Below are positions 32,947-62,461 of a stretch of DNA of 64,000 nucleotides, one piece after another (the stretch's first letter is position 1; each line of letters opens with the position of its first letter). Source of the stretch: Gonatopus flavifemur (taxonomy: Eukaryota; Arthropoda; Insecta; Hymenoptera; Dryinidae). The translations under genes were made by a program, and so were the position numbers. Under the pieces are notes generated by a model. It saw only the letters and a program-made list of their open reading frames with translations. It searched no databases and was not told where the DNA came from. The DNA lies in NCBI GenBank assembly GCA_018340375.1, contig JAFFJZ010000001.1, forward strand, positions 33,720,001 through 33,784,000, given 5' to 3'.

Positions 32947-33117
32947 ATATAAGACTGAAAAATGCCGGAAGAACAGAAGACTAGTAGTAGTCCACCGGAA
33001 GGGGCGACGGAAAATGGAACAACCAATTCATCAAACAAAAGCCCGATCGTGAAAGGAAAATTAGCACTCGCGAAAATCACTTTACTCGATGGCACCGTCA
33101 AAGATTTTCACGTCGAC
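32947..33117 (+). CDS. cora: coracle start exon
   Basis: Fifteen bases of 5' UTR precede the ATG at 32962. The 52 codons give a polar Ser/Thr/Asn-rich leader, then the first FERM strand [17 protein letters not shown]. The donor is GTGAGT at 33118, in phase 0. The acceptor at 32946 shows that transcription starts further upstream in at least one separate non-coding exon. Confidence 0.9.
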
Positions 33118-36100
33118 GTGAGTATTATTGAATTTTGATTTATTTTCCATTGATGGTTGTGGGTATGGGAAAATAAGGAGAATATTTTCAGGTGAAACGT
33201 GATCGGTGAGCTTCAAAGGAATTTTTATTTTTGTTTGTAATTGAATGGGAAATGAGCGCTTTGTTGAAATGTTACGGGATGTACTCGCGTCACCTGTAGG
33301 TCATTAACTGAAAATATCCATTCCTTGCTCCAGTGACCCAGGATCTAAGCGTGTGTTTGGTTCTGAGTAAATTTTTTCATGCTGGGCCGATTATCGAGGT
33401 TACTCCTTTAACCGTAATAATCAGATAGGGCTGATTGTTACAGCTGTACTCCAAGCTTGACAGATATACGTAATGCCTCAAGGACTTTATATAAAAATGC
33501 CTGTGAATGGATTGAAATGTTACTACGGTTACAGTATTTTCATGATATTTCATGAGATTAATTGTTGATAAAATTCAAGATTATCTGAAAACAATCGCTG
33601 CAACAATTAATGACTTAATTTAAGTGGATTGATTTCTCAACTACTCTGTATTTCATTTTTCACATCTAACGTTTGTTTAAACCAAGTGGTTTTTTGCTCA
33701 GAAAACCAGTAGTGATTTTTTGCTAAAAGAAAACAAATAAACGTAGTTTTTTCCACAATCCAATGCTTTCATATTATTTTTCTCGTCTTCTTTTTATGTG
33801 CTCTATTTTTCACAAATGAAGTTCCATGATCTATATTGGTGATAGTTTTAGGATCCCTTTGCACTGTGGAAAATGGAAATGCACGGGAAAAAATCATTAT
33901 TCTCATAATTATACTGTCGAGTTTCTGTAACAATCTAAAATATGGGCAGAAATCTAAAATATCTATAACAATTTAATATTGCCAGCTTGGCTCAAGAAAT
34001 ACACTTATATACCCAGATAGCGCCAAGGGTTCTGAAAGAATTCGGAAAGAATTTTCCCAGAATACCAAAAGTGATCAAAAGAACACTTATGGAGATTGTA
34101 TACAGCTCGCAGATGTCCGAAGAATCTAACTCTTTCCGGATTCCTCTTTCGATCGAATTTTATGCTTTTTTCAAGTCATTGTAGAATTCTGCAACAATGT
34201 TTTAAGATTGTCAAAAGAACTTTAAAAATATGATATGGGATTGTGTTTTATGGAGCAGAACAATTTGAAAAGAGTTCGAAATAATTGATGATCGTTCTTG
34301 CCCACAGAGCATAAAAGAAATTGGTTTTTCTTTACAAAATTTCCAATAAAAATGTTCAGCACTGACTTTTGAATAGTGAATAAATCAATTTTCCATTGTT
34401 TCACAGATGCGTTTTAGTTTTTCATGCTGAATTGAATATGCTGAATATTGAATCTGATTAAATGAAGTATCAATGTAATTAAATAAAGTTGAAGGTTGCT
34501 GCTTTTTTTACTGTTCCTCTTCAAAGAACTTGAAGTATTGTGATACCGATGTTTATAATGTCTGTCTTCCAAAGTAACATAAAACTAATTTATACCGCGT
34601 AAAGTTTTTAAAATACATATCCAAATACCTTCAGGTTTTCAGCTTTAGATCAGAAGTGAGATTTTTCACTCCAATAAGGCAGTGTCTGTTTTGTATGTGA
34701 ATGGCCTAATTTGTTCATTAGTGAGAATTGCACAGAGAAAAGTTTATATTAAAGTTCGCTATATTTTTATAATACTCGTGAGATATACTTTATTATGAGG
34801 CTGAGACCTATATTTATTTTGAATTATAATATATTTATCTTCATCCTGACGAGAGAGTATGGTGAATGTTCGTATACTTGTGGTTCATAGCGACATAATC
34901 AAATATATCCCAAAAGTACAATATAAATATGCTAATATCTGATATAAAATTTTTACTGTGTAAAACTTATAGTTGTAAAAAAATCCCTATAATTTCGAAA
35001 ATTGAAAATTTCTTGTTCAGATTGGAAAAACTAAATTTCATACCAAACAACCAAATTTAAACACAAACCCCCTGGTATTTTGTAAAAATTTCTGGTTTCT
35101 TGGAACCCTGGCTAGTAAGTTCGGGAATATGAGCATATATGAATTATTTCATTCCTACGCATCAAATGGTTCTTCATCGAATGAACAGGGAGTGGAACGA
35201 AGGGGCATCTCATCGTCCTTAAACGAATGATAAATTCCCGTAAGTGCATCGGTTGTGCCACTCGGGCCGGTGCAACCCTTCGTCTCGATAGTGGGTCCAC
35301 GTTCTTGCCGCCATACTTCCCACCCTCATCGCAACGACAGATTTTATGACGACTTTGACAACAGATTTTGTACCATAAATCACAGATTAATGTTTCTAAT
35401 GTATTATACTGAAAGAAATTCTCAGAAAATGTCATCAATCATATAGTTTTGTTACTATCATTGAAATATTATGGTATGATAACCAAATTCTTGTAGACTG
35501 AACAAAATTCTGGTTGTTTTGATTACATTTCAACAAAATGTTTTTTGTTGGAACGAATTTGTTTTCCTTTTTATTATATCAAACAATCAATGAAAAAAGT
35601 CCTTCCATTCAGTACCAGGCAGTTGTTTTTGCAGGATGTCTATACTGATACTGGGAATACTGGAAATGTGCTGGAATTGTTTTTGCATACTTGAAATAGT
35701 GGGAATACTGGAAAAATACTGGGATTTGAAATTTTGTTCTGAGATTTTTCCGGTGATATCCGTAACAGGAAAAATAGTTTGCAAAAAGTTTCAAACTTTT
35801 ATATTATTACAGTTTTTGTTTGAGAAAAATAAAAAAATGGAATGCGTGAGTGTAACAAAGTCGATTGGCAAAGCATAATTTTATGACGTTGAGAAAAAAA
35901 TGTCAAATTTGCTGAATTCCATCAGGAATTATCTAGCTTATGAGCTTTGATAAAAAACTGTGATGAATTGATGGAACATTCTTCACGAGGATATCAGAAC
36001 TATTTTGTTCTCTGGGTTCGTTTCGAACTTTTTGATTTTCGAACGTACCTAGAATACAAAAAACCTGAACGAGCTTGTTTTATAGTGCTCAATAAAATCG

Positions 36101-39100
36101 TCAAGAAGAATCAGAACGTTTGAGGAAATAGGCACGTTTTTTGAATTGATTAGGAAATCCATTTTTTGTGTTGGAAAACAACTATGAGAAGTGAATGTTA
36201 TCACAGTAATAGTAACATTTTGAACAATTATCCTGTATGTAGAATCAATTTGTGATCCCTGTTGAAAATATCTCATCGATTCTCATGAGGTCTAGTTTTT
36301 TCTAGGACAGAAACCGTATCAAATCTTGTAACCAATGATTCTTGATTCTAGAAGTTTATACGAGACTCTACAAATTAGTCTCAATAAATCTAATGACGTT
36401 CTTATTCTTGAATTCTGGAATTCATCAACACAGACCGAGTATTCAATTTTATATTCAATATCAATTGGATTGAATAAAAATTCAACTGATTTAGCGTATA
36501 TTTTTTCAACGCTGGAAGAAACATTTTTCAGTAAATTCCCAAGCAACTTTCATCAGTCGACAAACATTTTTTGGAAAGTCACTGAAATTGTTTAAAAATT
36601 TATCAAAAAAATTGGTGAATTCCCAGGTGATTTGAAAATTTACGAACCTGTAAGTTTTTCGGCATTGTATTTTTCTTGGAAATCTACAAATATTTTTTAC
36701 AATGAATATGAAAAGAACTTGAAGCGTGAGATTTGATGGGTTTCCCATTGATTGCAAAGGATGCTTCCTTAAATTTCACCGATATTACAGTAATGTTTTG
36801 AAAATTATCAACTCATTCCCTCATAATTGGAATCCCACGTTAACTTTTGAAGTAGACTCCTTTTTAGTGTTCTCATTGATTATCCTTCAAAGTTTTCATT
36901 TTCAAATTACGTTACACATTTCGGTTCTATCTTTGGTGTTAGTATTCTATTTAGTTCTTCAAAAATTCTCAGAAGATATATTTAAATTTGGATGCTTCGT
37001 TGAAATTTCGTTCGAGAATTTCTATCGAATCCAAATGTACACAATTTCAAATATTTGGATACATTAACAGTACATTCGTAATGAATTCACTGAACTCTCG
37101 TCAAATAAGAACTTTGGAATTTTACATAACATATTTCTTCTATATTGACATTCTAGAATGTTACAAAATATATAATAAGACTTTCAACTTCAGTATTATA
37201 CCAGAAAAATATAATAACATATTGATACATGTATATCTAATTAGTTACAAATGTAATTAATGTTCCTTTGATGATTTTTTCAATTGAACGCATAACATAT
37301 CTGAAAAAATTCACCCTTCTTCCCATTATAAAATCATCACAAATCTATTTCAAACACTAATGCTAAAAAATTGTGTGATTTATGTAATATACTGGAATTT
37401 CATCGAGTGGCCTCAGTAAGACACCCTGTTTTGTCTTCCTCATGTTCAATATTAAGTTTTTTGGAATTTTGATGATATGGTATCATTCAAAGAGCTCTAG
37501 GGGCAGTCAAGCTTGTTATCGGAAATAAAGAGAAGTGATTGTACATACAAAGTTTGGGAATAAAATATTCTATTATGCCTCAATTACCCGTCGTTGGTTT
37601 CACTTTCAGGTTCTTCGCGGATGATAATTAATTTCTCGTTAAAGCTGTGTATGTTTTACATAAGATCTGAAATTTATCATTTGCATTCCCCATCATTTCC
37701 TCTAATTAGAAACGTACAAAATTATCTGTACTAATTTACCACAATTTGATTATTTTTATTGGTTTATTCGATTCTTGAGTGAATGAGTACAAATATTGAA
37801 TTATAGTTTCTCCAACTGTTTTGAGTAGTCAATTGAATTATATGAATAGTTACTATGCCTATCAGTGCAATTGTGGCAAACATGAAGATGACGAAATTGT
37901 AGAATGAAACAATCTCCTGTGTTCCGAATATGTCCATTATTACGAATTTTCACTCCCGTGTTTCTGCTTAGGTGCATGTCGATAAAATGCCCGAGAGCGA
38001 ATATCGATACTATAACTCTAATCCAATACTCCAAGTTTTATGTAAATAACCTCAACCCAATAACTTGTTACAGAGAGTTTGTTTGACTCGTTATCTAATA
38101 TTATTTTCAGAATGAAATCAATGTGTTTATGAAAATCTTTTGTCGAGAAAGTTACATGTAAAGAAAAGACGAAAAGATGTACCGCAATATAGCAACAAAA
38201 AAGAAAATAAATAAGTTCAGTTGATTTATTCCTTTGGACGTCATAATAATAAAAACTCAATTGCTGTTCCAATAATTCCTTCCCTGCGTGCCCCAATGAT
38301 TTTGTGAACCATTTTTTCCAGATGAACTATCACTATCTCTTTTGACATTTCCATCGAATCGTACTGCATTTTACAAGTGGATTCACAAAGTATTCGTAAA
38401 AAAATAATCAAGCAAGTTGACGGAAGAGACAATTAATTGAACTTAGTATTCCTAAAAGATCAATAACAATATTGAGCATTTATTTTTCTCGTAGTCAAGA
38501 AATGATGGATGTTGTCAACGACCAAAAATATGTTCAGAATTGATGATAACAGTTTGATATCTCGACATCCAATGTTTTGAAATCTTGGATTCTTTTCTTT
38601 TGAAATTATAGGAGTCTTTGATGTCGCCGGAAGCATCTCTTCTGGATCAATACCATATCGGAACGTTCAAACTTGTATTGTTGAATTTCCACTTACACGA
38701 GGTAGCATATGTTCGTAAAAACTCTTTTGATGAGCACATCGATCCATCATGTGCTTAATTCTAAACAACGGAAACAGCACATATATCGTGTAATAAGTTT
38801 TCACCGTCATATTTTTTGTTACCTGATATTGGATATTGTGTCTCACATGCTTGGGACGCAGCATAGACATAGGCACACTTAATTCTATTTGAAGAGGATA
38901 AATTCAATTTATTTCTCGTTACTCTATAATGCCTTGCACCGTTCTGCAACGATCCGATGTCCGTAATTTCCTATTTAGTTTCAAGTTGACATTTTTGTTT
39001 CTCTTTCACATTTACATCCTTGCAAATTACCGAATAAAATTCTCACGAATGGAAATGATAAACTCGTTTATCAAATTTCTGTTTATAAACAGGAAAAATC

Positions 39101-42100
39101 ATTCCATCGCTTGCTCTCAAATCTTATTTTCTAGCCAATTAATCGATCCGAAACATTTGTTTTCATTTTATACATAGAACGTTGACTACTTAATATCAGG
39201 ATACGATGAATTCTGTGAATGGATTTCAATCGACACAGTGACTATTCGATTAGAGTCTGGAAAAGAGGAAGAAAAAGTATAGGCCCTGTACTTTCATTAC
39301 GTTACCGTTAATTTCTTTATTCACAAACCACGTTAGCATCAAAGAGTAAAGGAAAACACAAAAAATTCAATTTAGAATCCTTGTAGTTACCGTACTTCCT
39401 TTGATTTTACATGACCTTCTTCGATGTAGCCACTATAGCAACCTATTCACGTCACGCGTTCTAATTACAATTCATAGCACTGAATATAGTTCAACAGGAA
39501 ATGTTTATTCTGGGTACAACAAATTGATTTTATTCTCATTTCGTGTGTTACAGAGAAAAGCAAAGGGTCAGGAACTTCTCGATATGATATGTCAAAGTAT
39601 GAATTTACTCGAGAAAGACTACTTTGGCCTAATATACGAAGACAAGCACGATCCGAGGAATTGGTTGGATCTCGACAAGAGGATTGTCAAGTTCGTTAAA
39701 AGTAAAAACTTTGTTTCATAAATTTGGTATTTTGTTATTTGCTCCGAGAGAACATTGATCGAGCAGTGTTCTCTTGGGATATGAGGTTTCATTTAATGAT
39801 CGTGTGAAATTTTTGTTTTGACATTACAGATGAACCATGGACGTTCAACTTTGAAGTAAAATTTTATCCGCCAGATCCAGCTCAATTGCAAGAGGATATA
39901 ACGCGTTATCAATTGTGTCTACAAATTAGAAACGACATCATTAGTGGTCGTTTACCATGTTCTTTTGTGACACATGCTCTTTTAGGCTCTTACTTGGTAC
40001 AGTCGGAAGTTGGAGATTATGATCCTGAAGAGCATGGCAGAACTTATCTTAAGGATTTTAAATTTGCACCTAATCAAACTCCAGAGTTGGTAGAGAAAGT
40101 CATGGATTTACATAAAACACACAAGTTAGTGTTTTCGATTTTGTTTACAATTAAACGATAACGCTTAAGGAAGTTTTTTTAAGATGAAGGTGGAACTATT
40201 ATAGAATAATGAATCTACCAGAATCTACTGTTTGCTATTCTGTAACTGAACAAAAAAACAATTTGTAAAATGATGTATTTGTTGCAGAGGTCAAACACCC
40301 GCCGAAGCGGAACTTCATTATCTCGAAAATGCAAAAAAGTTGGCGATGTACGGAGTTGATCTTCATCCCGCCAAAGATTCAGAGGGAGTCGATATTATGC
40401 TAGGTGTATGCTCGTCGGGTCTTCTTGTATATAGGGATCGATTACGAATCAATAGATTCGCATGGCCTAAAATATTAAAAATTTCATACAAAAGGCACAA
40501 TTTTTATATTAAAATTAGACCTGGGGAATTCGAGCAGTTTGAATCTACTATTGGGTTCAAATTGGCGAATCATAGAGCTGCTAAGAAGTTATGGAAGGTG
40601 TGCGTGGAACATCATACTTTCTTCAGGTAATGCATCGTCAATTCACAATAAAGTAAAGGAATCGTCGAACATTGATTTATGGAATTGTTATTTTCAGACT
40701 AATGAGTCCAGAGCCTGTGAAAAAAGTCGGATTTATACCACATTTGGGGTCTCGTTTCCGATACTCCGGTAGAACTCATTACGAGACCAAGAAAACACCT
40801 ATCGATAGACAACCTCCTCAGTTCGAACGATCTCTGAGTGGTCGTAGATTAACATCTCGAAGTATGGATGGTGAGAATTTCGGTCTATCATTTGTAACGT
40901 GATTTCAATAGTTATTTTTTATGTTAGATTATTCGAGCCTAGAAATGGGACAACACTGATGAATTCCACAGTGAAATCTTGAGACATAGATAGCTAAATT
41001 TTAGCCGATTCAGTTGAAAATTTTTTTCCCGTGTGTGATTTGATTGATAACTAAAATATACCATTTACAGTCCGTATGAATATCAATTGCAATTTGTGTA
41101 TTAAAATCTATAAAGAGGTGCCGAAGAACTCACATAAATGGGAGTAACCATGAGCACGATCTGCTTATTTTTAACCCTAGAAGTACAAACCCATTTTTCT
41201 TTACCTGTAAACTACAAATCGGGGTAAAATCGTTCTAGGAGCAGTAATTTGACTCTCAAGTACATGAATTTCTTTGTTTTTTCATGTCAAAGGGATTGGC
41301 GAAGAGCAAATTCAATTTGACTGAAGTTTGGTTTGTAAAAAATCGATTTCAATAGCTAAAAGTGCCGAAAAACGGTCAAACCGTCATTTAACCAATAAAA
41401 ATTCATCACTATATTTCTAACCAATTGATTTTCAAATTTCCAACGGGATTTTGAAGAGGTCACATAAAGTTTTGAGAGAAAAAAATAGCACCATGAGATT
41501 CTGCCAAAAAAGTCTATTTATTTGGGGTTCCGAAAATTAAAAAAAAATGGGAATCCGATGTATGGAAGAGTCAAATGAAAATCCATGAAATATTGGTTTT
41601 CAAGACTATATTTCTGTTTTTGCCATGTAAAATGTAAAAAGAAAGAAAAATTTGATACATATATAAAATATTCAAAAGTAGAGTTACAATTTCACTTATT
41701 CAAAGGCGCCACAATCGCTGCAGTAGAGTATTATGTGATTCTCACACTCTCGAAATTCAAATCAATAAAATCTCACTATTTATGCAGTTGAGAGTCGACC
41801 ATTGTATGAAATCAGTGAGATGGCAGTGAATAGTCGCTGGTTATGCAGTTGAAGTTCCTCTTCGCGGATTAAATCAATGACATTCTACTGTAGGGATTAG
41901 TGAATATTCACTGATTTTGCACCGCATATGAACTGATTCGCAGTGGTCGAATATTCACTGCAATCAGTGAGATTTCACTGTTTTTAATTTAGAGAGCAGG
42001 TCGGTCACTTGGACTTCGTGCAATATATTCGCGTTTTGGGATCCCCCGATGAGGAACACAAATCGCATTGCGCGTGCTTTTTTGATGACTCAGAATAAAA

Positions 42101-45100
42101 TGAATAATGTTTCATTGTAAAATGAGGTCTTAATATATCAATTATATTTATTTTAGTGAAAAAGAGAAATTTGACTCACCTACTAACTCAAAATACTAAC
42201 GGAAACCACAAACTGGGGTAGATATCCACCCCACAAAAGCTTCACGTCTTCACCCCGTCACAGTAAATCAGAAATTGAAGGGTCTATTAACCTCGCCCCA
42301 TGTTTGTAACTTTGCACGAAATTATGGTATAGCTAGGTCTCCAGTGGATTATGTCACTGGCTAACTTAGAAACGTAGTTCAAAGTTTACCTGGGGTAGAT
42401 ATCTACCCCGGTTTGAAGTTCTAGGGTTAAAAAATAGGATAGTGCGATTCATTGAAAGTATTTCAAATGTCCCAGCAAAGCAAATAAACAGTCCTTATGC
42501 GATACGAAAGGTATCTTGAATGTATCTCACGCAAGCACTGAGAGAAAAGTCCATTGTAAATTGTACTATTTTGATCAGTAAAACGTATATTAGTTAGATT
42601 AACTAATGCATTAGTATATTCGCATGATAATATAGCGAAAGTAACTAATTGAAAATCGTTGGAGAAACTACAAAAATTTGTGAAGAAAATAAAGGTAGTT
42701 GGAACTTATTTATTAGTCACACTTTCTACTATCCTTGAATAGTAAAATCAACTCCAAGAATATATTCCTATTTACAGTTCAGATTACTTATTTTTGATTA
42801 GCACACAAAAATTCGCTTAGTCAACATGACTGCTTTCCAAAGTATAAGATTTGGTATAATATCTACCATTTATTTATAGGTTAATTTACGAATGTTTATA
42901 GTAAGCTTTACAATTTCGATTAGTAAAAAATATATTGAGCGGAACAACTAACTTTATATTAGTAAACTTGAGTAAGTTGATACAGAAAGTTCAATTACGT
43001 AGGAAAAATCCGAAACTATTGAAATTATTGATGGAATCAAGCTATACGTGTATCTTAGGCAGCTGTGCTTTGGCTTTTATCCTAGTGTGGCTCAGTTTTC
43101 GAGATATTCAAGTTTGAAGAATGAACGCGAGTTGATATACCCAAAAAAGATCCACCTACTCAACCGACCGGCGGTGTCTTGAGTGATAGAATTTCGGCGC
43201 TCAGCCCCAACTTCCCTGTGTTCAATTCTCGTGGAAGCGATTCTTTTTTCCCATTTATCCTGATATTTTTTTCAATTACACTGAATAGTAAAAAAAATTG
43301 GTAATCTGACTAATGTTTAATAGCAAGGATCTTTTGTGCTCTTACTATTCGTAGTATGGAAGCAGTAGTTAATTTTACTACCAAAAAATAGTGAAAAAAT
43401 TTTCCCTTCTCGATGGGTAATATTAAATAGTTCATTTTACAATCAATACTTGGTGGAAAAATATGGTATTCTTTACGAACATTCATGATCTATTGAACTA
43501 ACAACTTCTACTATTCTTCATAGTTGAGTCCTTTCGCAACTCAGAAAAATAGTATATTCCACTACTTTTCTTCTCTCAGTGAGCGAGATACATTTGAGAA
43601 TACTAAAAGATGCAAGTCTCAAGTTAGTATTTTTGTACGATTGAATTTCTGATATATGAAAATTTTAAAATAGTTCGACTGTCTGATGCAGCATTAGGTG
43701 GACCAAAGTTAGTTGAAACTTACGGATCAGAACCAAGTAAACGGCACACTATGAGTTACGAACCAGACATGATTCCCGACATGGAACACATAGATCAACG
43801 TCCTAGTCCAATAAAAAAACAAAAAGATAAGGTGAGTACTCTTTTTCTGTACCACGGCAATTCAAAATGATAGAAAACATGGTTGATGAAATTTGCACGA
43901 ATAAAATTCTTCTCGTTTTACGAATCTTAGATGATTCAACGTGAACATATATATTCAGATAAACGTCTTCTACACGTAATTCAAAATTTGCGGTCTTCGC
44001 TTTCAAACCACAAAACATTTAGCGCCTCTTGAGGGGGATTCGAAACCTCACGATACGAGTATATAATTACGTAAATTACACCACTTGGTTCATTGTTGGA
44101 AAGAAAAATAGTTGATTGAATATTCATTCATTTGATTCGCGTGTAACGATTATAATGTATAGTATTGGCATGGTAGTATCGTACCGTATTTGTTAGTTAT
44201 AAATTTTCATTTTATACACATCAAACCCTAGATGTACACGTTCGATTCCAATTTAGTATCGAAATGATGTTTAGTTTTTGCTATTTATTTGTGATTAGAG
44301 TAAATAATTCACCGTATTTGAAAAAAAAACCTCCCAAGGATTTTATTATTGTTGGAATATCAATTTAAATTATTTGTATTTGAATTCGTAAATTCCTTTC
44401 CACGATAAATTGATTTATGAATTTGAAGTCAGGAAATTGGGTGAAATGAAATAAAACAATGATTTTTTTCACATCCTATGAAACATTTGTGAAATTTTTC
44501 AGTAATTCAGGTTTCTTTCTTACACTGTAAAGATTAGTCTGAAATTTCCTAGATTAGATGAATATGAAAATTCGGAAACTTGTAATTGAAATTAAGTTTA
44601 AATTTTATATGAAAATTCAGAAAAGTTTTGAAAATCAATACAAAATTTATATGTTAATTGGTTCGCATAAATTTATATGGAATTCAGGAAGCAATTTTTT
44701 ATTACAGCGTCGCGCATTTTATACGATAGAACTTTTTTTTATCCTGGAAAATGAATAAATATCAACTCATTTACATCGAATAAGCTTTACAGTAATTGAA
44801 TGATATTTGATTTACTTCGTTCTCCCTTAAACTGTGAAGAAATTCCTTCTGAAAATTCAGAAAAAAAATGTGTAAAAAATTACAGTCACATTTTCTGAAT
44901 ATTCAAAAGTAATTCTTTGACAGTGTAATCCAGTGTTTGAATTTTATAAAACATTTGTTGTAGAAAACATGCTTGGATTAGTAAAAATAACACAATAGTG
45001 ACAGTTAGTTGCATTCATTAGATTTTGATTTAGTTGAAAATGGAACACTTCTTTAGAATAATGCACTTCAATAGTTGTTGAACATGTCTGAAAAAAAGAT

Positions 45101-46083
45101 TCAAAAACACGATCATTCAATTTTTCAGCTGTGAATTTTTCTTCTCATGAAAACAAAGAACAAAAATTTCTAACATCTTGGTACAAATTGTGTGTGATGT
45201 TAGTTTTACTTTCTTAGATTTCATATTCAAAATATAAATCCTACGCACAACGCTATTCTTCACGGTGTAGATTTTCCTCAACTCTACATAATAAAAATTA
45301 CTATTCATCTGAAAGTTCCGATAGAATAATTGCATATTTAATCATAAATCTTTAGTTCGGTATATTATTTCAAAGACAATGTACAGAGGAATATAAATTA
45401 AAAGAACAGCGTCGGATTAAATAGGTATTTTATGAAGTGGTACGTATTTGTAATTTATATCTGCTTACGGCATCAATTTGAAATTGAATCTGCAAATGGT
45501 ATAGCGTAGGCGAAATAAGAGATAGAAGAAAACGTGCACGTCTAGGGTTAACGTTCCATTTCTTTTTCAATTAAAATACTTTTCACAATCAACGATTCAT
45601 CACATAAATCAAACATCCATTTGAATTTTGATTTCATTGCCAAAATATCCATTCAAATGTAATTTATTTATGTATCATATCTAAGTCACGAAGCTTCAAC
45701 CATGATTAACCAACACCTCATAACTAACATCACTATAGCTCACACGAAAAACAAGTGCTGGAACAACGTCGGCGAGCAGTACCAGTAGCCTGGAAGGAGA
45801 ATACGATGCTGATCGTGGCAGAAAGGTACAGACATATCACACAAAGTATTAAAAACAAAAAATCATCGTCAGTGGAAAAAAAAAAGGAACAAGAGTAATG
45901 GAACTGTATTTTATTTTTATATATATGGCCATTTGTGGTATCTTCTTGATTTCTCGATGCACGTTTATTTTATATATCCATGCATATTACTATTATTATT
46001 CTATATATGATAAAATTGATATGGCCATCGCTTCTTCGTGTATCATAAATAGAAAAATGAAATGTGTTGGATGTGTGAGATGT

Positions 46084-46118
<35 letters not shown>

Positions 46119-47578
46119 AGTTGTGAGGATTAATGAAAAAGAAGAAGCAGTAATAGAAGCAGTCCGTTTTATTTTATATATCGCTTAATGTTGCACGATT
46201 AGATCAATTATTTCATATGGGAGAGAAAGATCTTTATTTTGAGAGCGCAGACCGTAATTATAATGCGAACAATATTCAATATTTTCTGTGGATTTCTTTT
46301 GGTTTTCTCACCGCATGCGACATATAAGAATTGAGCATATAGTTTTCTCTTCTACAGGGAATATTTATACATAATATGCGTATATATATGATACATATAA
46401 ATTCATGGCGTAGTTGCTTTTTTAGCTTTTTGCATGAAGCGATGTGTTATTGTGTGAATTTAAAATTGTAGAAACCGGTCGGAGGAATTGCGGTTCTACC
46501 GCCCGGTGGTCTTTCTAAGAAGAAAAAGGACAAGCAGAATGAAAACGAGAAGGAAAATTACAATGAACTCTACAATTCTGATCTGATTAATGAAAACGCG
46601 ATTCTCGATAAAATTGATGAAAAATCGCCGAATAAAAAGGATACCACAAAAAAGAAAGACAAAGAATCCCCAGAGAAGAAGGATAAGGAAAAGAAGGAAA
46701 AAATCAAGGTAAGTTCGATGTTGAGCAATGTACGTTGCGTAGTTTTGAATATATCCATTTGAAGAAGAGTATCGATAATTAGTAGAATAATTTTGGCGAT
46801 ATTAGAGATTTATTTTTAGCTTGAATCTAGATTGGACCAATAATGAGAATTGATTTATCAATTTGAATCATGTATGCACATTATTGTTCATCGTGAATTT
46901 GAATATTAGAGGCATGATCGTGAATTTGTGTTGATTATTATGTATCCAATCGATTTGTCGAATACTCGAAAAATCTTCATTTTTCAATCATACTATGAAT
47001 ATAGATTTCAAAAGCATGTATATTTTGCGTTGCATGTTGTTTTTTTTGTTCAACATCAAGAGTCCCGTCGGTGGTTTTCTATTTGGCAAGAAAGACAAGG
47101 ATCAGAAACAAAAGAAGCAAAAGAAGAATAAAGATCTAGTGGAATCGACTGATAAGAGCGATATCGAATCGAATCTTTCTGCATCGGAGAAATCAGTAAA
47201 CGACAAACAGCAGCATCAACAACCACAACAATTGCCACAACAACAGCAACAGCCACAGCAACAACAACAAGAACAACAGCAACCCGTCGAAGGTGAAAAG
47301 AAAAAAGAATCTCCAAAACTTCCCGGATACACGAGACCTTACGATTACGTGGAAACCGAAACTTCTCCTACGAAAAAACCTTTCACCCCGTTTGGATTTT
47401 CGTACGAGGATAAGCCGAAGTCTCCAGGAGGTATTCACGATCAAGCTTCGCCTACGTCTTCTGGTCGCAAGGCGACAGGTTTGGCATTCAATTATGCTCC
47501 CGGGGAAGAGAAGAAAGTAGCAGAATCAGCGGAAAAACGTAAAACCAAAGACGCGGATGTATCCGACAAGCAGTCAGT

Positions 47579-47610
<32 letters not shown>

Positions 47611-50600
47611 CGGGTCTCAGAACCCCGGGTCTCAATTACGTAGAATCGGCGGGTTTGAAAGAACAACAAAAGAGTAGTGGCGGAGTGGCAGAACCGGCCG
47701 ACGAGAAAAATTTAACCAAGGCTTTCATCGCGGGTGAAAAATCGGCATCCACTTCTCCTCCGGTTGCAGCATCGAGTCAAGCAGAATCCAAAGTAGAGTA
47801 TCACGTTTTACCTCTTCCCGATGGATCAAAAATCATTGGTGGGGCAATTTATACCAAAGATGGAAAACTGTTGGATCAAAGTAGTCTCGGCCCAGAGGGC
47901 AGCAAAATCGAGGAAGGCAAGATTTATGGAAAGGACGGTAAACTTCTAAAGAAAGGAGATTTCGGTCCTCATGGGATTCATATTCATAATGGCACAATCG
48001 TTGGGAAAGATAGTAAACCATTGAATCAAGAAAATTTAGGTATAAGCGGGAATTCCATAAGAAATGGTCTTATTCACGGATCCGGGGGACGACCTGCGAA
48101 TCATTTTCTCTTGGGACCGGAACATTCCCAAGTCAAAGATGGAAAAATTGTCAATAAGAGTGGCAAACCAATCCCATTTTGTGCATTGAATGCGTACGGT
48201 ATGCACGTCAAAGAAGGTCTTATATTCACTAAAGATTCCAAACCCCTCAGCCAAGGATCGTTCGGAACTGACGATAATTATATTCTTGGGGGAATCGTTT
48301 GTAACAATAGTGGAAATCCATTGAATCAAATTGCTATCATACCGGATCAAACGTACGTGTGCGAAGGCTTGATATATGGAAAGGATGGCAAACCACTGGC
48401 AACTGGAAAATTAGGCCAAGACGCTTTGATAGCGGAAGGGAAAATTCATTCAAAAACTGGCACTCCGGTGAAGAATGAACCTTTCAGTTCTGATGGGTCT
48501 GTGATAAAAGATGGCATCGTTTATGCCAAGGATGGAAAATTCTTGTATCAAGGATCGCTTCTTCCTCAAGGAGCTCATCTGAAGGATGGTAAGGTGGTTG
48601 GAAAAGATGGGAAAGTTATAAAACACGCGTTCTTCAAACCAGATGGAAGTTTCATCAAAGATGGAATTATTCACGGTAAAGATGGTAGACCTCTCAGTCA
48701 AATTCCTTTAATCGCTGACGGAACTTTCATCGATGAAGGTGTGATTTATGATCAGAATGGCAAACCTTTGAATCAAAGTCTTTTCAAACCTGACAATCTC
48801 GTGATCAAGGATGGTATTATTTATAACGATAACGAAACTTTGTTGTTCAACGCGTTCCTCGGATCGAGCGGATTGACGGTGAAAGATGGACTGGTGCTTG
48901 GAAAAGATGGAAAACCCGTGAAACAAGAATCTTTCGGATCGAACGGGAGTTATATAAAAAAAGGTGTGATTTATGGAAAAAATGGCAAACCATTGAATCA
49001 AGATTCTCTGTTACCGGAAGGGGCGTCCATCAAAGATGGTAAAGTGTGTGGCAAAGATGGCAAACCGATTAAATTTTCATTCTTTAAGTCAGACGGAAGT
49101 TACATCAAAGATGGATTGGTTTATGGAAAAGATGGTAAACTTTTGAAATTGAATCCTACCCTTCCGGATGATAGTTACATCGCGAATGGAGTGATATTCG
49201 ATTGTTTGGGTAAACCTCTTAATAAAGATAAATTTGGATCCGATGGTTCGTACGTTTCCGGAGGATTGGTGTATAATAAGGATGGTAGAATCGTGGATAA
49301 AGGATCATTCGGACCTGACGGGAATATCATCATAGATGGATTGATTCTCGGAATCGACGGTAAATTCTTGACTCAAGACGACAAAGGACCAGATAATATA
49401 GCCGTCAAAGAAGGATTCGTCGTCGATAGTCAAGGAAATCCGAAAAACCAAGAATCTCTACTTCCCGACGGTTGTTACATTCGAGATGGAATAATTTATG
49501 ATAAAAATGGAAGTCCTTTGAAACAAGGAGCCTTCAAACTCAATGGTACGTACGTCAAAGATGGTTTAGTTTACAGTTGGGGGGGACAACTTTTGAATAC
49601 TGGTTCTCAATTGCCGAACGGTAGTTACATCGAAGATGGAAAAATATACGGTAAAGATGGACAACCATTGAATCATAGTTGTTTCGGAAGCGAAGGTGGA
49701 TTCGTTCAAAATGGTGTTATTTTTGGGAAAGATGGAAAACCTCTCGCACACGGCACGTTCGGTGGCGAAAGGAATTATATTCGAAATGGTTTAGTTTTCG
49801 ACTCCGATGGAAAGCCTTTGAATAGAAAACATACCGTCATCACCGTCTCTCTCGTTCGTTACGGTTTAGTTTACGGACAAGATGGAAAACCATTGAAATC
49901 TGGTAACTTTGACAACAATGGTAGTGTTATAAAGAATGGAAGAATATACGATTACAGCGGACAACCGCTGAATCAGAATAATTATGGAGACGGTGGGAAT
50001 TACATTAAAGATGGTTTGATATACGGAACCGACAGCAAACCTCTCACGAAAGGTCCATTGAGCCCAGAAACGAGTTATATAAAGAATGGAAAAGTATACG
50101 ACGCGAACAATCAATTGCTGACTCAAGAAGCTTTTGGTCCAGAGGGTCTGAAAGTGACGCAAGGCGTCATTGTGGACAAAAATGGCAAACCATTGAAAAA
50201 CGCAGCTTTCGACACCGAAGGCAGTATCGTCAAAGATGGAATCGTATGTAGTTCGAACGGCAAACCGTTGAGTAAAAGATTCACGGTGATAACCATCACT
50301 TTAGTTCGAAGAGGATTGATTTGCGATAAGGATGGGAAACCAGTCGTTCAAGCACCTTTCGGTACCGATGGCAGCGTAATCAGGAACGGCAAGATATACG
50401 ACAAAACGGGCAAACCTTTGAATCAAGAGATCTTCGGAGAGGAAGGAGCGTACGTGAAAGATGGCGTTATCTTTGGAAACGGTAATCAACCTCTAGACAG
50501 CGATTCTATTCTAGAGGATCTTAAAGTATTGGAACAAAGTGTATCAACATCCACGGCTGCTTCTGTTCCCGCTGCTGCCACCACCGCTACCAAAACGAAA

Positions 50601-52913
50601 AAAGCTACTTTAACCCCAACATCCATTCCAACGATCGTCAAAACCACCACCAAACAATCCGTAGTGAAGGATCAAGAAGGAGTGACTGAAAATATCGAAG
50701 AAAAAGTCGAAGATTTGACGCCTGGGGGCACCGGACAAGTAACTGTATCAACGCACGTTAATAAGGTGAAAAGAAAATGAAATTTGAAAAATAAATTTTA
50801 TAAAATGTAAAGTAATCGGTAATTTTTCAGATTCATGCATGTGTGTTTTGTTTTTTCATTCTTTGACGAATTGAGAATTAAGAATTTGTAAATGAATTAT
50901 TGAATTATGCTTGATTGATTATTTGAGACCTTAGTTACATTGTAGTCGTATTTAGGCAGAAGCGCCAGACGATGGTAGAACTCCGTATATGACAGCAACC
51001 GCTGTCACTACTCGAACAGCAACGATGCATGAGGATCTTGAAAAAAATCAAAAAACGAGCCAGGTTTGTATTATAATGTTGCTCTAAAGACTGAAGCTTC
51101 TTGCATCTTGCGATTTGAAAGTTTATTTGCTCATCGAAGCATTGTATTTTCATTTGCAAATACAAACGATATGAAGTTATTATCATTTTAGCTCTCATGC
51201 GCGTGCTATTAGTTTTTTTTATAATTTAATTCATTTGCATATTAGGTAGAGGAAAAGACCGTAGCGCATACAACCGCGACTAGTGCAACGAAACAAGAAC
51301 AACGTGTGGTAACGCAAGAAGTTAGGACGACCAGTCACGTACGTTCTGGCGAACAGGTAATGACATTGTTTCTATTCCTCAACATCTTGGATAACGCTTC
51401 GAATTGTTCGTCCAAGCATGGCTGTTGTTATCATTTATATCTGTACATAATTGTGAGAACATTCGTATTTCGTTTTATTATTATTATTATTATTATTTTT
51501 ACATGTGTAACGCCTTGGAATTTTACATTCACGCTTTGAGGTGTTTTTAATTTATCAAACATACATACAATCACGATACTTCGACTAATTTTTGAAGGAA
51601 CTTTTTTTTTCGCTCATTCACACTTTCTAATAAATCATTTATATCGAGTCATAATTCAATTCATCAGCCATGAAATCGATTCACATATCTTTTTTTGGTT
51701 CTCAAAACAAAACAAATATCATTAATTTTGGCGGCTTGGCTAACACGTTGCATGGCGTAGCTGTTTTCAAGAAGACTCAGTACGTCCAGTTCGAGCAGCG
51801 GTGATTCAGGTACACCCATCGACCTTGAAGACGATCAACAAGCTTTTTACAATCCATATAATGAGGTAAGATGCGAATGAGATGTGAATTGGTCTAGATT
51901 CTACAGTAATTTTTATCTTTATCATTCGATGAGTTATTATTTGAAATCAGTTAAATTCAATTCAGAAATGATTTTGGATTCATGATTTGATCGATTTTTC
52001 TCAAAACAAATTATAATGTTGAAACGTGTGTGAAATTGTCAATCAATTTTATGATAATCAACTAGAAGACGATCTTCCATAAGGTAAATATCGAGAAGAA
52101 TGAATTAATATATTCCGGTGGTTTCATTGTTCAACCCTCATTGTGTATATACGTGTTTCTAATAAGTACATTTGGCATAAATTAACAGTATCATAACTCA
52201 ACGTATGCACAGTTTTTTTTTTTATTTGAAAAAAAGAAACAATGCATGTCATGTGTTGTTGAAACAATTAATAAATAGCCTCGTTCCTGAAAAAATTCAT
52301 AAAATAGCAGAAGAAGAAGAAAGTTTATCGAATTGATTGATCAATTATGATTGCATGTTATTTAGGGTGATGTCGCAGCTATCTCTCCTACCGAAACGGT
52401 AACGGAAAAATCCGATCACAGTACCATACCCCCAGCGACAACGGTACCGTTAGTTGCGAAAAGTACTGAAACTAGAAAAGTAGCTCTGGAAAGCGAAGAT
52501 GGAAACTACAGTGCTACCGGAGAAATTGTTAGTTCTCAAACTATATCTAGTAAAACGCGTACCGTGGAAACTATTACGGTGAGTTATCCCCTTCTTTTTT
52601 TTATTTCCCAGATGAATGTGAGAAAATTGACTCTCCTCAGAAAATATTTTCTTCGTCCGAAGAGAGTTCTTTTGAATTTTGAATGAATTGTATTATCGCA
52701 TCAGAAATAGATTTGATTTGATTTTTCCTGCAGTATAAAACGGAAAGAGACGGTGTAGTAGAGACCCGCGTGGAGCAGAAGATTACCATTCAATCCGACG
52801 GCGATCCTATCGACCATGACAAAGCCTTAGCAGAAGCAATTCAGGAAGCAACAGCGATGAATCCTGACATGACTGTCGAAAAAATAGAAATTCAACAGCA
52901 AACAGCTCAGTAA
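32962..52913 (+). CDS. cora: coracle / protein 4.1 homologue, whole gene
   Basis: A membrane-cytoskeleton adaptor. In Drosophila the family member Coracle links septate-junction proteins such as neurexin IV to the cortex. Coding exons read from splice sites: 32962-33117, 39554-39701, 39830-40124, 40288-40626, 40698-40870, 43692-43831, 45739-45825, 46472-46708, optional 47061-50765, 50956-51063, 51246-51356, 51761-51865, 52366-52578, 52734-52913. All junctions have AG/GT and keep frame. The short form is 763 aa. The FERM domain covers about residues 34-310, then the FERM-adjacent segment ([20 protein letters not shown]), a Lys-rich linker and the 4.1 C-terminal domain ending QQTAQ. The ATG at 32962 is chosen because it follows the acceptor at 32946 and opens the frame into the FERM fold. 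The spectrin-actin-binding segment of vertebrate 4.1R is not seen. Confidence 0.93.
34731..34960. repeat. MITE family M3 copy b
   Basis: A 230-bp element with ends CACAGAGAAAAGTTTATATT and AATTTTTACTGTG. It has the same length as, and is nearly identical to, 2048-2277. TA follows the right end; the left flank is TG. It lies in the first coding intron of coracle. Confidence 0.9.
35634..35866. repeat. interspersed repeat M17 copy b
   Basis: GATGTCTATACTGATACTGG through GATATCCGTAACAGGAAAAA to GAGTGTAACAAAGTC. It is closely similar to 14094-14310, with a short extra segment repeating the TACTGGAAA motif. Confidence 0.75.
39554..40870 (+). CDS. cora: coracle exons 2-5: FERM domain and FERM-adjacent region
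   Basis: Exons 39554-39701, 39830-40124, 40288-40626 and 40698-40870, with introns of only 70-165 bp. They encode the F1 lobe ([37 protein letters not shown]), the F2 lobe ([51 protein letters not shown]) and the F3 lobe ([59 protein letters not shown]). The FERM-adjacent [20 protein letters not shown] and [14 protein letters not shown] follow. The phases (1, 2, 2, 1) are consistent across all junctions. These residues make the 4.1 family assignment secure. Confidence 0.95.
41175..42426. mobile_element. non-autonomous piggyBac-like element with TTAA duplications
   Basis: A 1252-bp element. TTAA (41171-41174) precedes CCCTAGAAGTACAAACC, and GGTTTGAAGTTCTAGGG precedes TTAA (42427-42430). CCCTAG ends at TTAA are the hallmark of piggyBac. 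Just inside the ends, GGGGTA-rich mirrored motifs recur (CGGGGTAAAATC near 41220, GGGGTAGATATCTACCCC near 42390). No transposase frame survives. The middle (about 41730-41985) has TGCAGTTGA, CAGTGA and GAATATTCACTG repeats that may be a further nested insertion. Confidence 0.85.
42536..43581. repeat. 1-kb CACTGAGAG-ended element in a coracle intron
   Basis: Ends are CACTGAGAGAAAAGT and ACTTTTCTTCTCTCAGTG, with AG on both sides. The flanks (TGTATCTCACGCA at the left, CGAGATACATTTGAGA at the right) mirror each other, so the element lies in the centre of another palindrome. A tRNA-like segment lies inside (43150-43238). The 60-codon + frame at 42935-43117 is not supported as a gene. Confidence 0.75.
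43150..43238 (+). tRNA. tRNA-derived relic (pseudo-tRNA or SINE head)
   Basis: GTGTCTTGAGTGATAGAATT resembles the pol III A box and D arm of a tRNA (the usual form is GGTCTAGTGGTTAGAATT). GTGTTCAATTCTCG about 50 bp later resembles the B box and T arm. A run of T follows near 43246. Stem pairing is poor, so this is not a functional tRNA. It could be a decayed tRNA or the head of a SINE. Confidence 0.35.
43692..46708 (+). CDS. cora: coracle exons 6-8: linker region
   Basis: Exon 43692-43831 encodes [20 protein letters not shown] and a Pro/Met-rich acidic tail ending KKQKDK. Exon 45739-45825 encodes a 29-residue Ser/Thr-rich segment ([20 protein letters not shown]). Exon 46472-46708 encodes [20 protein letters not shown], then a Lys/Glu/Asp-rich, probably disordered stretch ending KKEKIK. 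All have GT donors (GTGAGT, GTACAG, GTAAGT), and the last two exons are phase 0 at both ends. A 26-bp AG microsatellite (about 46089-46114) lies in the intron before the last of them. Confidence 0.85.
43832..45738 (+). other. coracle intron with one TA-flanked MITE
   Basis: A 1.9-kb AT-rich intron. The MITE at 44523-44925 is its only recognised content. Confidence 0.6.
44523..44925. repeat. 403-bp MITE, family M22, TA target
   Basis: Ends are CACTGTAAAGATTA and TAATTCTTTGACAGTG, with TA on both sides (44521-44522, 44926-44927). Mirrored AAAATTCGGAAA / TTTTCTGAATATTC words lie inside. The + frame 44558-44758 is inside it and not a gene. Confidence 0.75.
46089..46114. repeat. AG dinucleotide microsatellite
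   Basis: About 13 uninterrupted AG units in a coracle intron. It creates an Arg-Glu run in the 96-codon + frame at 45898-46188, which is not a gene. Confidence 0.9.
47061..50765 (+). CDS. cora: coracle giant repeat exon (36 x 25-residue repeats)
   Basis: The acceptor TTCAACATCAAG ends at 47060. Upstream in-frame codons belong to the intron. It opens with [20 protein letters not shown], a Lys-rich head, then a Gln-rich run (about 47205-47285), a [19 protein letters not shown] segment and an Ala run (47578-47610). From 47823 to 50519 there are 36 contiguous units of 25 residues, one of 24. The consensus is G-S-x-I-x-D-G-x-I-Y-x-K-D-G-K-P-L-x-x-x-x-F-G-x-D. A Thr/Ala-rich tail ends VSTHVNK. An in-phase donor AAG/GTGAAA at 50766 would splice to 50956 (cassette, isoform about 1998 aa). 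If unused, the frame stops at 50778-50780 and AATAAA follows (alternative last exon, 1764 aa). The donor lacks the +5 G, so regulated use is plausible. The repeat spacing suggests a beta-solenoid (inference). Confidence 0.88.
50790..50795 (+). terminator. candidate alternative polyadenylation signal
   Basis: AATAAA lies 10 bases after the TGA that closes the giant exon frame. It would give a very short 3' UTR if the exon is used as a terminal exon. In an AT-rich intron such a hexamer can also occur by chance. Confidence 0.35.
50956..52913 (+). CDS. cora: coracle last five exons: 4.1 C-terminal domain
   Basis: Exons 50956-51063, 51246-51356, 51761-51865, 52366-52578 and 52734-52913, all phase 0. 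They encode [59 protein letters not shown], the segment around [20 protein letters not shown] with [16 protein letters not shown], and the conserved end [20 protein letters not shown] through [20 protein letters not shown] to the stop. For the third exon, the acceptor GGCGTAG ending at 51760 is chosen because it alone gives phase 0; AG choices at 51771 or 51774 break the frame. As the phases all match, any of the middle exons could be skipped without a frameshift. Confidence 0.9.
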
Positions 52914-56257: not shown

Positions 56258-57750
56258 TTAGATTTGTGGCAAAGATATTTGTTTGCTGCTTTCAGAAATT
56301 TTATGTTTCTTTACATTCTTCCAAAACGGTCTTGGCGTAATATGATTATTTTTCAAACATTCTATAGCAGGAACTAAAAGAGTGAAATCGGTTTCAATAA
56401 GAATGTGTATAAATATTTTGTTTAAGTTCTAGAATTCCAGTAATTTCAAGGCCTTTGTCAACGAAGTAACGATATCAGTGGACTAACATTATATACTTAA
56501 CGAAGTGTTGTATCTGAATACCTGATTTCCAAGGTGGGAATGCCTGTGGTTTTGATTCTCCTGGCGTTGACAAAACTGTGACAGAGAATTTAGGAGCAGA
56601 ATTTTGAAATATCGCTTTAGAGATAGATCGTCGAATGGCAGGGGGTAAGTTCAAAGAATCTGTAATTTAAATAAAACATCCTAGTTCTATCTGAATATTC
56701 AATTGTGTATATGAAATGATATATAAAGTGATACTTGTTATGTCGTCGTTCAATCGTAGTTCATGCTTTTCCTTCGTTCGATGAAGATATTTTTCCATTT
56801 GAAATCTTTTCATGAAAATACGGCACACTTCGTTGATAGGTTTTCCATCTAAATTCTCTGGAACATAATTTTTGTTTTTGTTTCATTATCCCGAGGACAT
56901 CATCATCGAGGCAGCACAATTAACGTACCTAAAGTATCGGTATTTGCAATCAGATTTTCCCTATATCTGTAACATTGCGTAACAGGATTGCCTTGCAAAA
57001 ATAAATCTTTCAATCGTATCAACGAATTAACAGTCTCTGTCAATTCTTCTATATCGTTAATCGAATTATTTCTGGCATCCAAAGTGTGTAACCTCTGAAA
57101 ATTACTTAGATCTTTCAAAGATGTCATCTTATTATTCGATACGTTTAATGTCTCCAAACACTCCTGAGGGAAAAATGATGAGCGTTAGGGGAGAAGCATG
57201 AAGATACACTCGGTTTAATGAGAAGATTATAATTACGGATAACGCATTGGCACTTCGTGGTTCAAAATACAACATTTCGCCAGGAGAAATGTTTTGATTT
57301 TCTATGTGCAGCTCGGTTAGATTTTCCAACTTTTCTAAACCCTCGATGACGTTGATATTATTATGACCTAAATACAATTTTTTCAAATTCCTAAGAGAGC
57401 TCAGACCTTCGATTTTCCTAATTGCATTGTGTTGTAAATATAGATGCGTTACGTGTATCGCGAATTGCAAATTTTCTATCTTGGATATTTCATTATTTTG
57501 CAGATACACGACTTTTAAATTTTTACAAGCATCAATATTATCCTAGAAATGAAAAAAAAACACACACATGAAAATTAAAGAGTTTTGAAATAGAAGTGTA
57601 TTTTTGACTTACAATCTTTGTTATACCCAAATCATTCATATATAGATGAGTCAACTTCCATAATTGACAATCCACGTTTTTTCCATGAGAAGATTTCTTC
57701 ATTTTCAATTCAGACTTTTTTTTAATATATTTCTCATTCAAAACAACCAT
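56258..57750 (-). CDS. PPP1R42: PPP1R42-like leucine-rich-repeat protein
   Basis: Six exons on -: 57750-57613, 57542-57237, 57163-56929, 56857-56735, 56659-56522 and 56373-56258, all with AG/GT and continuous frame, giving 351 aa. Residues 30-235 hold SDS22-like leucine-rich repeats (LWKLTHLYMNDLGIT, LKVVYLQNNEISKIENL, VTHLYLQHNAIRKIEGL, LKKLYLGHNNINVIEGL, LTELHIENQ), then FEPRSANALSECLETLNVSN, a further repeat and a cap region with LQGNPV and ENLDGKPI. The C-terminus is Lys-rich with PRPFWKNVKKHK. In vertebrates PPP1R42 (LRRC67, TLLR) binds protein phosphatase 1 and sits at the microtubule-organising centre, mainly in testis and ciliated cells. The start at 57750 (MVVLNEKY) aligns in position with the family start; two upstream in-frame Met codons, the furthest at 57792, could extend it. 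Confidence 0.88.
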
Positions 57751-61000: not shown

Positions 61001-62461
61001 TCAAATATTATCATTCATCGATGTTCCCGAGCCTACGATGCTCTCTTTCACAACATCCATCGAAGGCTTAAAACTGTTATTGGGTTCAATTGTGTCATGT
61101 GATAATTTTGGGTTGTGTTTATCGATGTGAGTTAGTTCTATCGGCAAGTATATTGTTCGACAATGATCGATGTCTGCCCGACAGAGAGGACAGCGTTCGC
61201 AACGTCGAGCACATTGCAAGCAGGCTACCGCGTGTCCGCAAGGGAATAAGGCAGTATCCAAACTGCGATCCATACAAATTCGACACAGCATAGCGTCCAG
61301 CAGTCTTGCAAGGCATTCTCGAGATTCCTGAAAGTGCATATTCAATTTTTTAATCATTCTAATCAGATCGGAACTACTTTCAATGACATCAACTCAGATT
61401 TCATGATCCAAGTAGTGAAAAATACCATTTCAGAATAGGGCTTCGCACGAGACTCGCGTCAAAGAAACATAAAACAGTGACCAATAATTTCTCAAAACTC
61501 TCGTAATATCCGAATGATCAAGATAATTTGAGAGTATAGATGGAATCAACGGAATGGGGTGCAACCTTGATTATTCAAATAAAATCAACAAATATGTATG
61601 TCAAAATATGCACCGAGACTGAATTTAGTTCATACGTGTATTTCAAAACAACTCCCTATAGGGAGTTGTTATACAAAAGAAATGAAAATTCACGCGGAAA
61701 TTTGCCACAATTGAGAAAATATCTAGAAAACTCAAGTTTTTGATTCGTTTCTCTTTGGAAAATATAGAACAAACTTGAATCCATGAATTAATTTCAATAT
61801 AAGTTTCTTGAGGAGCTCATTAAGCTCCCAGGGATTGAACGATTCAATGGAACAAGGTACAACGATAATTCTGAGATAGTATCCCTATTAGAATATATTT
61901 TATTCACCTTGCATTTTGGATTTTGACAGTCCCCGCAATCGGATTGTTCCACCATTTCCTTCTCTTCGGGGGAAGTGATGTTCACAGCTTCGCAGTATAA
62001 CGCGCGCCTCGCATTGTCGTAAACCTCCCGACAAGTTCTCCGAATGTCGAAAACGTATTTTTTCCCCAACGTCGAGTCTTCGTTGAAGATTGAAATAATG
62101 GTACCCTAAAGATGAGAAAATTATACAACATTAATATATCGAGAAAAGAGATTTCTCCCTTCGCATCCCTGTCTCTGGGTGCTTATATGAACACGAGGGC
62201 TTCTACAAATATATCTTCACATGATCAAATTATCTGAAGAATACCTTCAAATCACGTATGAATTGGGCGGTAACTGCACTTCTGACTGTTTCACAGCTGT
62301 AAAAGGCATGCTTTTCGGTGATTGCTCTGTACAATCCGCTAGCAGATTGGCTGGAATCCAGTTTAAAATCCAACGATGTTTCTTCGCCATCAAGCGAAAG
62401 ATAAACCAGATGAAACATCCGCCGCTGAGTTGTTGCGCTTTGTATGGCCGTATATGGGATG
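61001..62461 (-). CDS. FERM-RING E3 ubiquitin ligase, MYLIP/Dnr1 family (3' part)
   Basis: Three exons on -: 62461-62245 (enters in phase 2), 62105-61908 and 61327-61001, ending at TGA 61001-61003. The first encodes the FERM F3 lobe (IPYTAIQSATTQRRMFHLVY, LYRAITEKHAFYSCETVR, FIRDLK). The second begins GTIISIFNEDSTLGKKYVFD and continues with a family-typical helix (TCREVYDNARRALY). It also carries a Cys-rich CGDCQNPKCK. The third carries a C3HC4 RING: CRIC, then CGHAVACLQC, then CERCPLC. Known relatives are MYLIP/IDOL (degrades LDL receptors, acts on myosin light chain) and Drosophila Dnr1 (restrains the caspase Dredd in Imd signalling). Which role applies here is inference. The N-terminal FERM exons are absent from 62462-64000, so they lie further upstream outside the window. 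Confidence 0.88.

Follow-up and report, generated by a model that had tools for sequence, protein, structure and literature searches.

The stretch of DNA analysed here (64,000 nucleotides of the dryinid Gonatopus flavifemur, contig JAFFJZ010000001.1, positions 33,720,001 to 33,784,000, referred to as the window) carries on its forward strand a gene with a long tandem array of a 25-residue repeat in one exon. Exons of the hymenopteran coracle/protein 4.1 proteins P0002, P0020, P0023 and P0005 were aligned to the window in order, from 32962 to 52910, by tblastn (Table 1). The FERM exons of the window were 74-97% identical to P0002, and the exons at 40693-40872 and 52366-52913 were aligned to the FA part and the C-terminal domain (CTD) part of the same protein, respectively; both Pfam FA and 4_1_CTD were present in 17 of 17 relatives scanned. 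The linker exon preceding the array exon showed 85% identity to Halictus (bee) and Polistes (wasp) and 65% to Leptopilina, which by itself points to a hymenopteran and probably to an aculeate, and the splice from 46708 to 47061 has a gt donor and an ag acceptor. The end of the array exon at 50765 was set by the relatives and lies ahead of the stop of the open reading frame (ORF) at 50778-50780. Since this exon of 3705 bp has phase 0-0, it would be skippable without loss of frame. Judged by sequence, the array-bearing gene is coracle. An earlier interpretation made from the letters alone (the sequence-only reading) had placed the repeats in a FERM protein, coracle, through the junction 46708/47061; this placement was borne out by the ordered flanking exons, the intact splice sites and a Pfam FERM_C match above its cut-off.

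The array itself (47823-50519) was translated without any stop into 899 residues and split into 36 units, all of them 25 residues long except unit 8, which has 24. The unit count, the exact register and the maintenance of the frame were thus reproduced as the sequence-only reading had given them. Gly7 and Ile/Val9 were found in 35 of the 35 full-length units and Ile/Val4 in 34, followed by Gly14 (29), Leu17 (26), Pro16 (25) and Gly1 (25), with a mean identity of 34% between protein units and a composition rich in Gly (15.9%), Lys, Asp and Asn. Self-identity was 0.29-0.35 at lags of 25, 50, 75, 100, 125 and 150 residues, and the best lag was at most 0.125 across 1000 residue shuffles of the array; the 25-residue periodicity is therefore far outside chance. 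At the DNA level, no repeat was reported for the array stretch by Tandem Repeats Finder, and identity between units averaged 49%, with 0.60 for second codon positions and 0.36 for third ones. Because the DNA repeat is nearly erased in this way, the duplications look old and the constraint appears to act at the protein level. A search of the genome (636 Mb) with the array gave at least one place, namely the 47823-50519 locus. Antisense ORFs of up to 144 aa were also seen over the array.

Within the array, a lag of six units gave a mean of 1.89, and the best lag in 5000 unit-order shuffles was 1.60 ± 0.04, none of which reached 1.89, which suggests that part of the array arose through block duplication. 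A strict 6 × 6 higher order was rejected, as the six-unit lag is clearest only for units 10-12 with 16-18 and units 27-29 with 33-35. An alternation of two units was likewise dropped; position 8 gave p 0.04 and 0.014 for odd against even units in a test of 24 positions.

Relatives were collected by a first protein search, which gave 20 proteins (19 hymenopteran coracles, P0002-P0020, and a bacterial-type protein, P0021), and by later searches, from which the best 120 of 5190 and the best 120 of 323 matches were taken. A hidden Markov model (HMM) of the units, proposed as a check by the sequence-only reading, was run on the 224 retrieved proteins and matched 21 of them at E 1e-10 or better, namely the array itself, P0002-P0020 and P0021. 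None of the other 202 proteins (the named ones non-hymenopteran, some nameless, many of them isoforms) was matched at 1e-3, and this absence applies to these 202 proteins rather than to all insects, since they were drawn from the best 120 of 5190 and the best 120 of 323 matches.

All 15 full hymenopteran arrays (P0002-P0016), from Orussus to ants, had 36 aligned units, with no gain or loss of a whole unit; the unit HMM by itself counts 31-36 units in them. Orthology of the units follows their position: of 586 ortholog units (15 full and 2 truncated proteins, ties taken as in place), 498 were best matched by identity in their own place, with about 16 expected by chance, and in-place identity averaged 0.53-0.67 per protein vs 0.31-0.35 to other units. 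Conservation of single units ranged from 0.39 (unit 14) to 0.78 (unit 11). Across 566 ungapped units taken from 18 sequences, Gly7 stood at 100% after rounding, Ser being seen as well, and the hydrophobic positions 4, 9 and 17 were conserved. Position 8 separates two sets of units: in units 2, 5, 9, 11, 17, 22, 25, 29, 31 and 35, at least 88% of 16 sequences have Lys or Arg there, and no other unit exceeds 6%; in the window, this position of unit 22 is Phe. Units 27 and 33 keep their variant stretches in the consensus of the relatives. As this consensus has one extra residue near the boundary of units 8 and 9, and each of the 15 full arrays carries one or more single-residue insertions when compared with the window, the shortness of unit 8 looks like a one-residue deletion at this boundary in the lineage of the window.

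The 15 arrays span 890-915 residues up to query position 891, with the largest indel relative to the window being no more than 7 residues. For the 105 pairs of the 15 proteins (window excluded), mean pairwise identity and gapped fraction were 0.61 and 0.013 in the array, 0.58 and 0.206 in the linker before it, 0.46 and 0.136 in the linker after it, 0.88 and 0.007 in FERM, and 0.89 and 0.002 in the CTD, respectively. Length is thus held more than sequence, since the gapped fraction of the array is far below that of the preceding linker at similar identity: the array diverges in sequence as the linkers do and keeps its length as the folded domains do.

Searches of the array against Pfam and NCBIfam gave matches below their cut-offs in every case (lowest E, NCBIfam NirD, 5e-6, with 26.6 bits where the cut-off is 74.65). 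Sequence matches in PDB were weak or about 12 residues long; a known family was accordingly rejected, in agreement with the sequence-only reading, in which the repeat was not recognised as a named domain. No choline-binding/CROP sequence profile matched the array at E up to 1, and one of 18 alignment members gave a weak ChW match (E 0.0047). The array was modelled with AlphaFold2 at a mean predicted local distance difference test score (pLDDT) of 68, with 491 of 899 residues at 70 or above. Every one of the 36 units has a predicted strand at positions 8-10, 34 have one at positions 3-4 and 18 at positions 18-22, so that short strands are predicted to recur in register every 25 residues. For the model of the whole array and that of a 275-residue piece alike, the top Foldseek match was a CROP-bearing chain (E 2.9e-10 and 1.3e-3, respectively), with low template modelling scores; the piece had no match at 0.001 or better. 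Choline-binding modules and Rhs/teneurin were also listed, with local likeness. The models support beta structure of the array, and the regular strands agree with the sequence-only reading and speak against a fully disordered chain; the elongated beta-solenoid that it had proposed is not established at this moderate confidence, as the packing is undefined in the model.

The central region of Coracle was compared in other insects between the conserved flanks, and proteins in which no flank was recognised, 14 hymenopterans among them, were excluded. Beetles, flies, caddis and lacewing had a period of 14, overlaid in most cases by a super-period of about 105-121, and Bombyx and Trichoplusia had 14/114. 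In the comparison with the long Drosophila form that the sequence-only reading had suggested, isoform G of D. melanogaster (P0191, 1696 aa) has a long repeat region (825 residues) in the same place, but of a different type (14/107), with 15 DPxTG-like matches vs 0 in P0001 (the window array). Periods were 41/82 in Schistocerca, 24/50/102/115 in the cricket P0027 and 15 (Lys 16%) in thrips; hemipterans, damselfly and cockroach had short regions (154-301 residues) with mostly no clear repeats, apart from Adelges with a Lys-rich 10/20 pattern. A period of 25 in a stick insect was set aside, as this Gly-rich region had no profile match. Repeat periods of their own were also noted in the locust P0025 (41), the thrips P0090 (15, Lys 16%), the centipede P0022 (24, Lys 21%) and the cricket P0027 (24/115). 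The central stretch of coracle thus seems prone to new repeats.

Profile comparisons by hhalign were made without the conserved flanks, which inflate scores. The array against the beetle, fly, caddis and lacewing regions was not above the reversed controls. The cricket P0027 gave a probability of 98.6 and E 1.3e-15 with negative reversed controls, Schistocerca E 9.9e-9, and the control P0021 E 5.6e-15; the pair HMM gave E 0.001 for P0027 (in a set of 122). Homology to the cricket array is not claimed because the bacterial-type control scores equally, and gene position is the one line of evidence for a possible shared origin of the DGKP-type arrays.

Published fly data were consulted in the parts of the reports that were available. 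Exon 9 of Drosophila coracle is included or excluded (PMC3315501), and it may be the fly counterpart of the array exon. Cora PC, with 703 aa, FERM and the C-terminal domain, is said to be sufficient for rescue (PMC7329144), so the contribution of the long form would be an optional extra, and the FERM domain by itself rescues dorsal closure (PMC8006247). Fly Coracle was located at septate junctions (PMC8006247), and large isoforms were concentrated at the fly neuromuscular junction, with the postsynapse marked by an antibody against them (PMC2323113). The available parts of PMC4617343, PMC12125057 and PMC4111903 mention neither the repeat nor long isoforms, and in the portions consulted no job was stated for the central region of the long fly isoforms. 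Among the papers listed by literature searches on coracle, protein 4.1, junction repeats and folds, no title or abstract opening describes the repeat, although older Coracle papers beyond reach may cover the fly region.

The array was read as a rod with a set length and a set unit order, with a probability of about 0.5. In such a reading, a skippable coracle exon would insert a regular chain of 36 short beta hairpins after the FERM domain, the end at membrane and receptor, and ahead of the 4.1 C-terminal domain. At septate junctions or postsynapses, this chain would act as a ruler or scaffold that keeps the two ends of the long isoform a set distance apart; the basic residues at position 8 of ten particular units could provide unit-specific binding sites. 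Along with the rod and the ruler, we infer the stacking of the hairpins, the binding roles and the alternative inclusion of the exon in Hymenoptera. More tentatively, the 36 units and their identities may have been fixed in such a beta-hairpin ruler before Orussus split from the other sampled wasps and ants. Other insect lineages have a turn-rich repeat type of their own at this site, which may thus be a hot spot where intracellular beta-rods of set length arise lineage by lineage; taken as a whole, this wider proposal is possible rather than probable. By sequence, a ruler, a platform and a spring are indistinguishable. A modular binding platform, in which units or groups of units bind cytoskeleton, lipid or scaffold and order is kept via unit specialisation with length secondary, would agree with the kept unit identities, with a basic position 8 fixed unit by unit and with the persistent variant stretches of units 27 and 33; yet a loose platform should tolerate unit change, which the 15 full arrays do not display, and we know of no binding partner of the array, so that this explanation was considered rather unlikely.

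A spacer that is flexible or elastic, being mostly disordered or having local folds only, would account for the Gly/Lys/Asp/Asn-rich composition, for pLDDT below 70 at 408 of 899 residues and for the low predicted template modelling score (pTM) of 0.39, but the near-invariant Gly7, the conserved hydrophobic positions, the near absence of indels in contrast to the flanking linkers and the predicted strands in register in nearly every unit make it improbable. Still less probable was thought to be a beta-hairpin solenoid of the choline-binding/CROP kind, an intracellular ligand-binding module reached by convergence: the Foldseek matches point to it and the motif I-x-D-G-x-I-Y-x-x-D-G is reminiscent of such repeats, while the differences from them are given below. 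Several observations weigh against the rod itself. Its model is of moderate confidence (pTM 0.39), with the packing between units undefined and residues 518-594 (units 21-24) below pLDDT 50, and VIA-align returned no match for the models. The unit HMM also matches P0021 (E 2.6e-19) in 16 irregular pieces of 8-20 residues; the match covers residues 490-1159 with scattered DGKP turns. Since P0021 scores through such pieces, the turn motif alone is unspecific and the regular array is specific, and P0021 stands as a caution against taking the DGKP motif for homology. The fly findings refer to a different repeat, and the hymenopterans sampled were limited to those with database proteins of about 705-2242 aa (first search) or 1105-3517 aa (a later one). 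Five hymenopteran models deviate from 36 units (Prorops P0017, 25; partial Cotesia congregata P0018, 21; Halictus P0019 and P0020, 10 each; Polistes P0023, 0), which may be truncated models, isoforms or real losses.

In Halictus P0019 and P0020, unit 1 is followed almost at once by a unit near 28; the roughly 26 units between them may have been spliced out from inside the exon in the manner of an exitron, deleted, or left out of the annotation. Polistes P0023 has no array and instead carries, at residues ~690-990, about 8 diverged tandem copies of the next exon of 36 residues, which is single in the window (50956-51063). Elsewhere in the window, on the reverse strand, a piece of a mariner-type transposase was found at 9593-10117 (Pfam Transposase_1, E 4.4e-29), a leucine-rich-repeat ORF, probably from a neighbouring gene, at 57132-57542 (LRR_4, E 4.9e-16), and a RING-finger ORF at 61001-61393 (zf-C3HC4_3, E 3.4e-12), which we take to resemble the RING end of MYLIP/Dnr1, a FERM-RING protein. 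Rfam and tRNA scans of the window gave no match.

Table 1. Positions in the window of the coracle exons and of the parts of the repeat array
Feature	Position	Strand	Evidence
First coding exon (extent of match)	32962-33117	+	tblastn
Exon, first part of FERM	39548-39703	+	tblastn
Exon, FERM	39823-40125	+	tblastn
Exon, FERM_C	40286-40627	+	tblastn; Pfam FERM_C above cut-off at 40376-40630
Exon, FERM-adjacent region	40693-40872	+	tblastn
Exon	43691-43837	+	tblastn
Linker exon, 237 bp	46472-46708	+	tblastn, splice sites
Array exon, 3705 bp, phase 0-0	47061-50765	+	tblastn, splice sites, length
Array of 36 units, 25-residue repeat (unit 8, 24)	47823-50519	+	translation, unit division, unit HMM, lag statistics
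Unit 8, 24 residues, sole irregular unit	48348-48419	+	unit division; consensus of relatives
Units 10-12, resembling units 16-18 (six-unit lag)	48495-48719	+	unit-lag comparison
Units 16-18, partner of units 10-12	48945-49169	+	unit-lag comparison
Units 27-29, with 12-residue variant stretch, partner of units 33-35	49770-49994	+	unit division, unit-lag comparison
Units 33-35, with 12-residue variant stretch	50220-50444	+	unit division, unit-lag comparison
Exon, 108 bp	50956-51063	+	tblastn, splice sites
Exon, donor not fixed	51246-51359	+	tblastn
Exon, start of 4.1 C-terminal domain	52366-52578	+	tblastn
Last coding exon, 4.1 C-terminal domain with stop	52728-52913	+	tblastn, ORF

The host gene coracle is known, and the repeat that it carries is conserved in the Hymenoptera compared and would merit a Pfam family of its own because none covers it at cut-off. 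Tandem arrays usually gain and lose units. With 36 units kept in order in 15 of 15 full arrays, this one is a naturally occurring case in which to ask whether a rod of repeats sets a length at a cell junction. Choline-binding/CROP repeats resemble the array in their short beta hairpins and as the top local likeness by Foldseek, and differ from it in that no sequence profile matched, no superposition was given by VIA-align and the array sits in an intracellular animal protein. The YD repeats of Rhs/teneurin, which wind into a closed shell, are likewise long beta-hairpin chains within one protein listed by Foldseek, and differ in giving neither a VIA-align superposition nor a Pfam Rhs match. The long Coracle forms of other insects share the gene, the FERM-FA-CTD order and the position between conserved flanks; those of fly, beetle, moth, caddis and lacewing repeat a DPxTG pattern every 14 residues, overlaid by a longer period of about 105-121, whereas the unit has 25 residues in Hymenoptera. 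The array of the cricket Gryllus (P0027) has the same gene position and DGKP turns and differs in its irregular spacing. In the available part of the Drosophila report (PMC3315501), exon 9 is optional, as the array exon would be.
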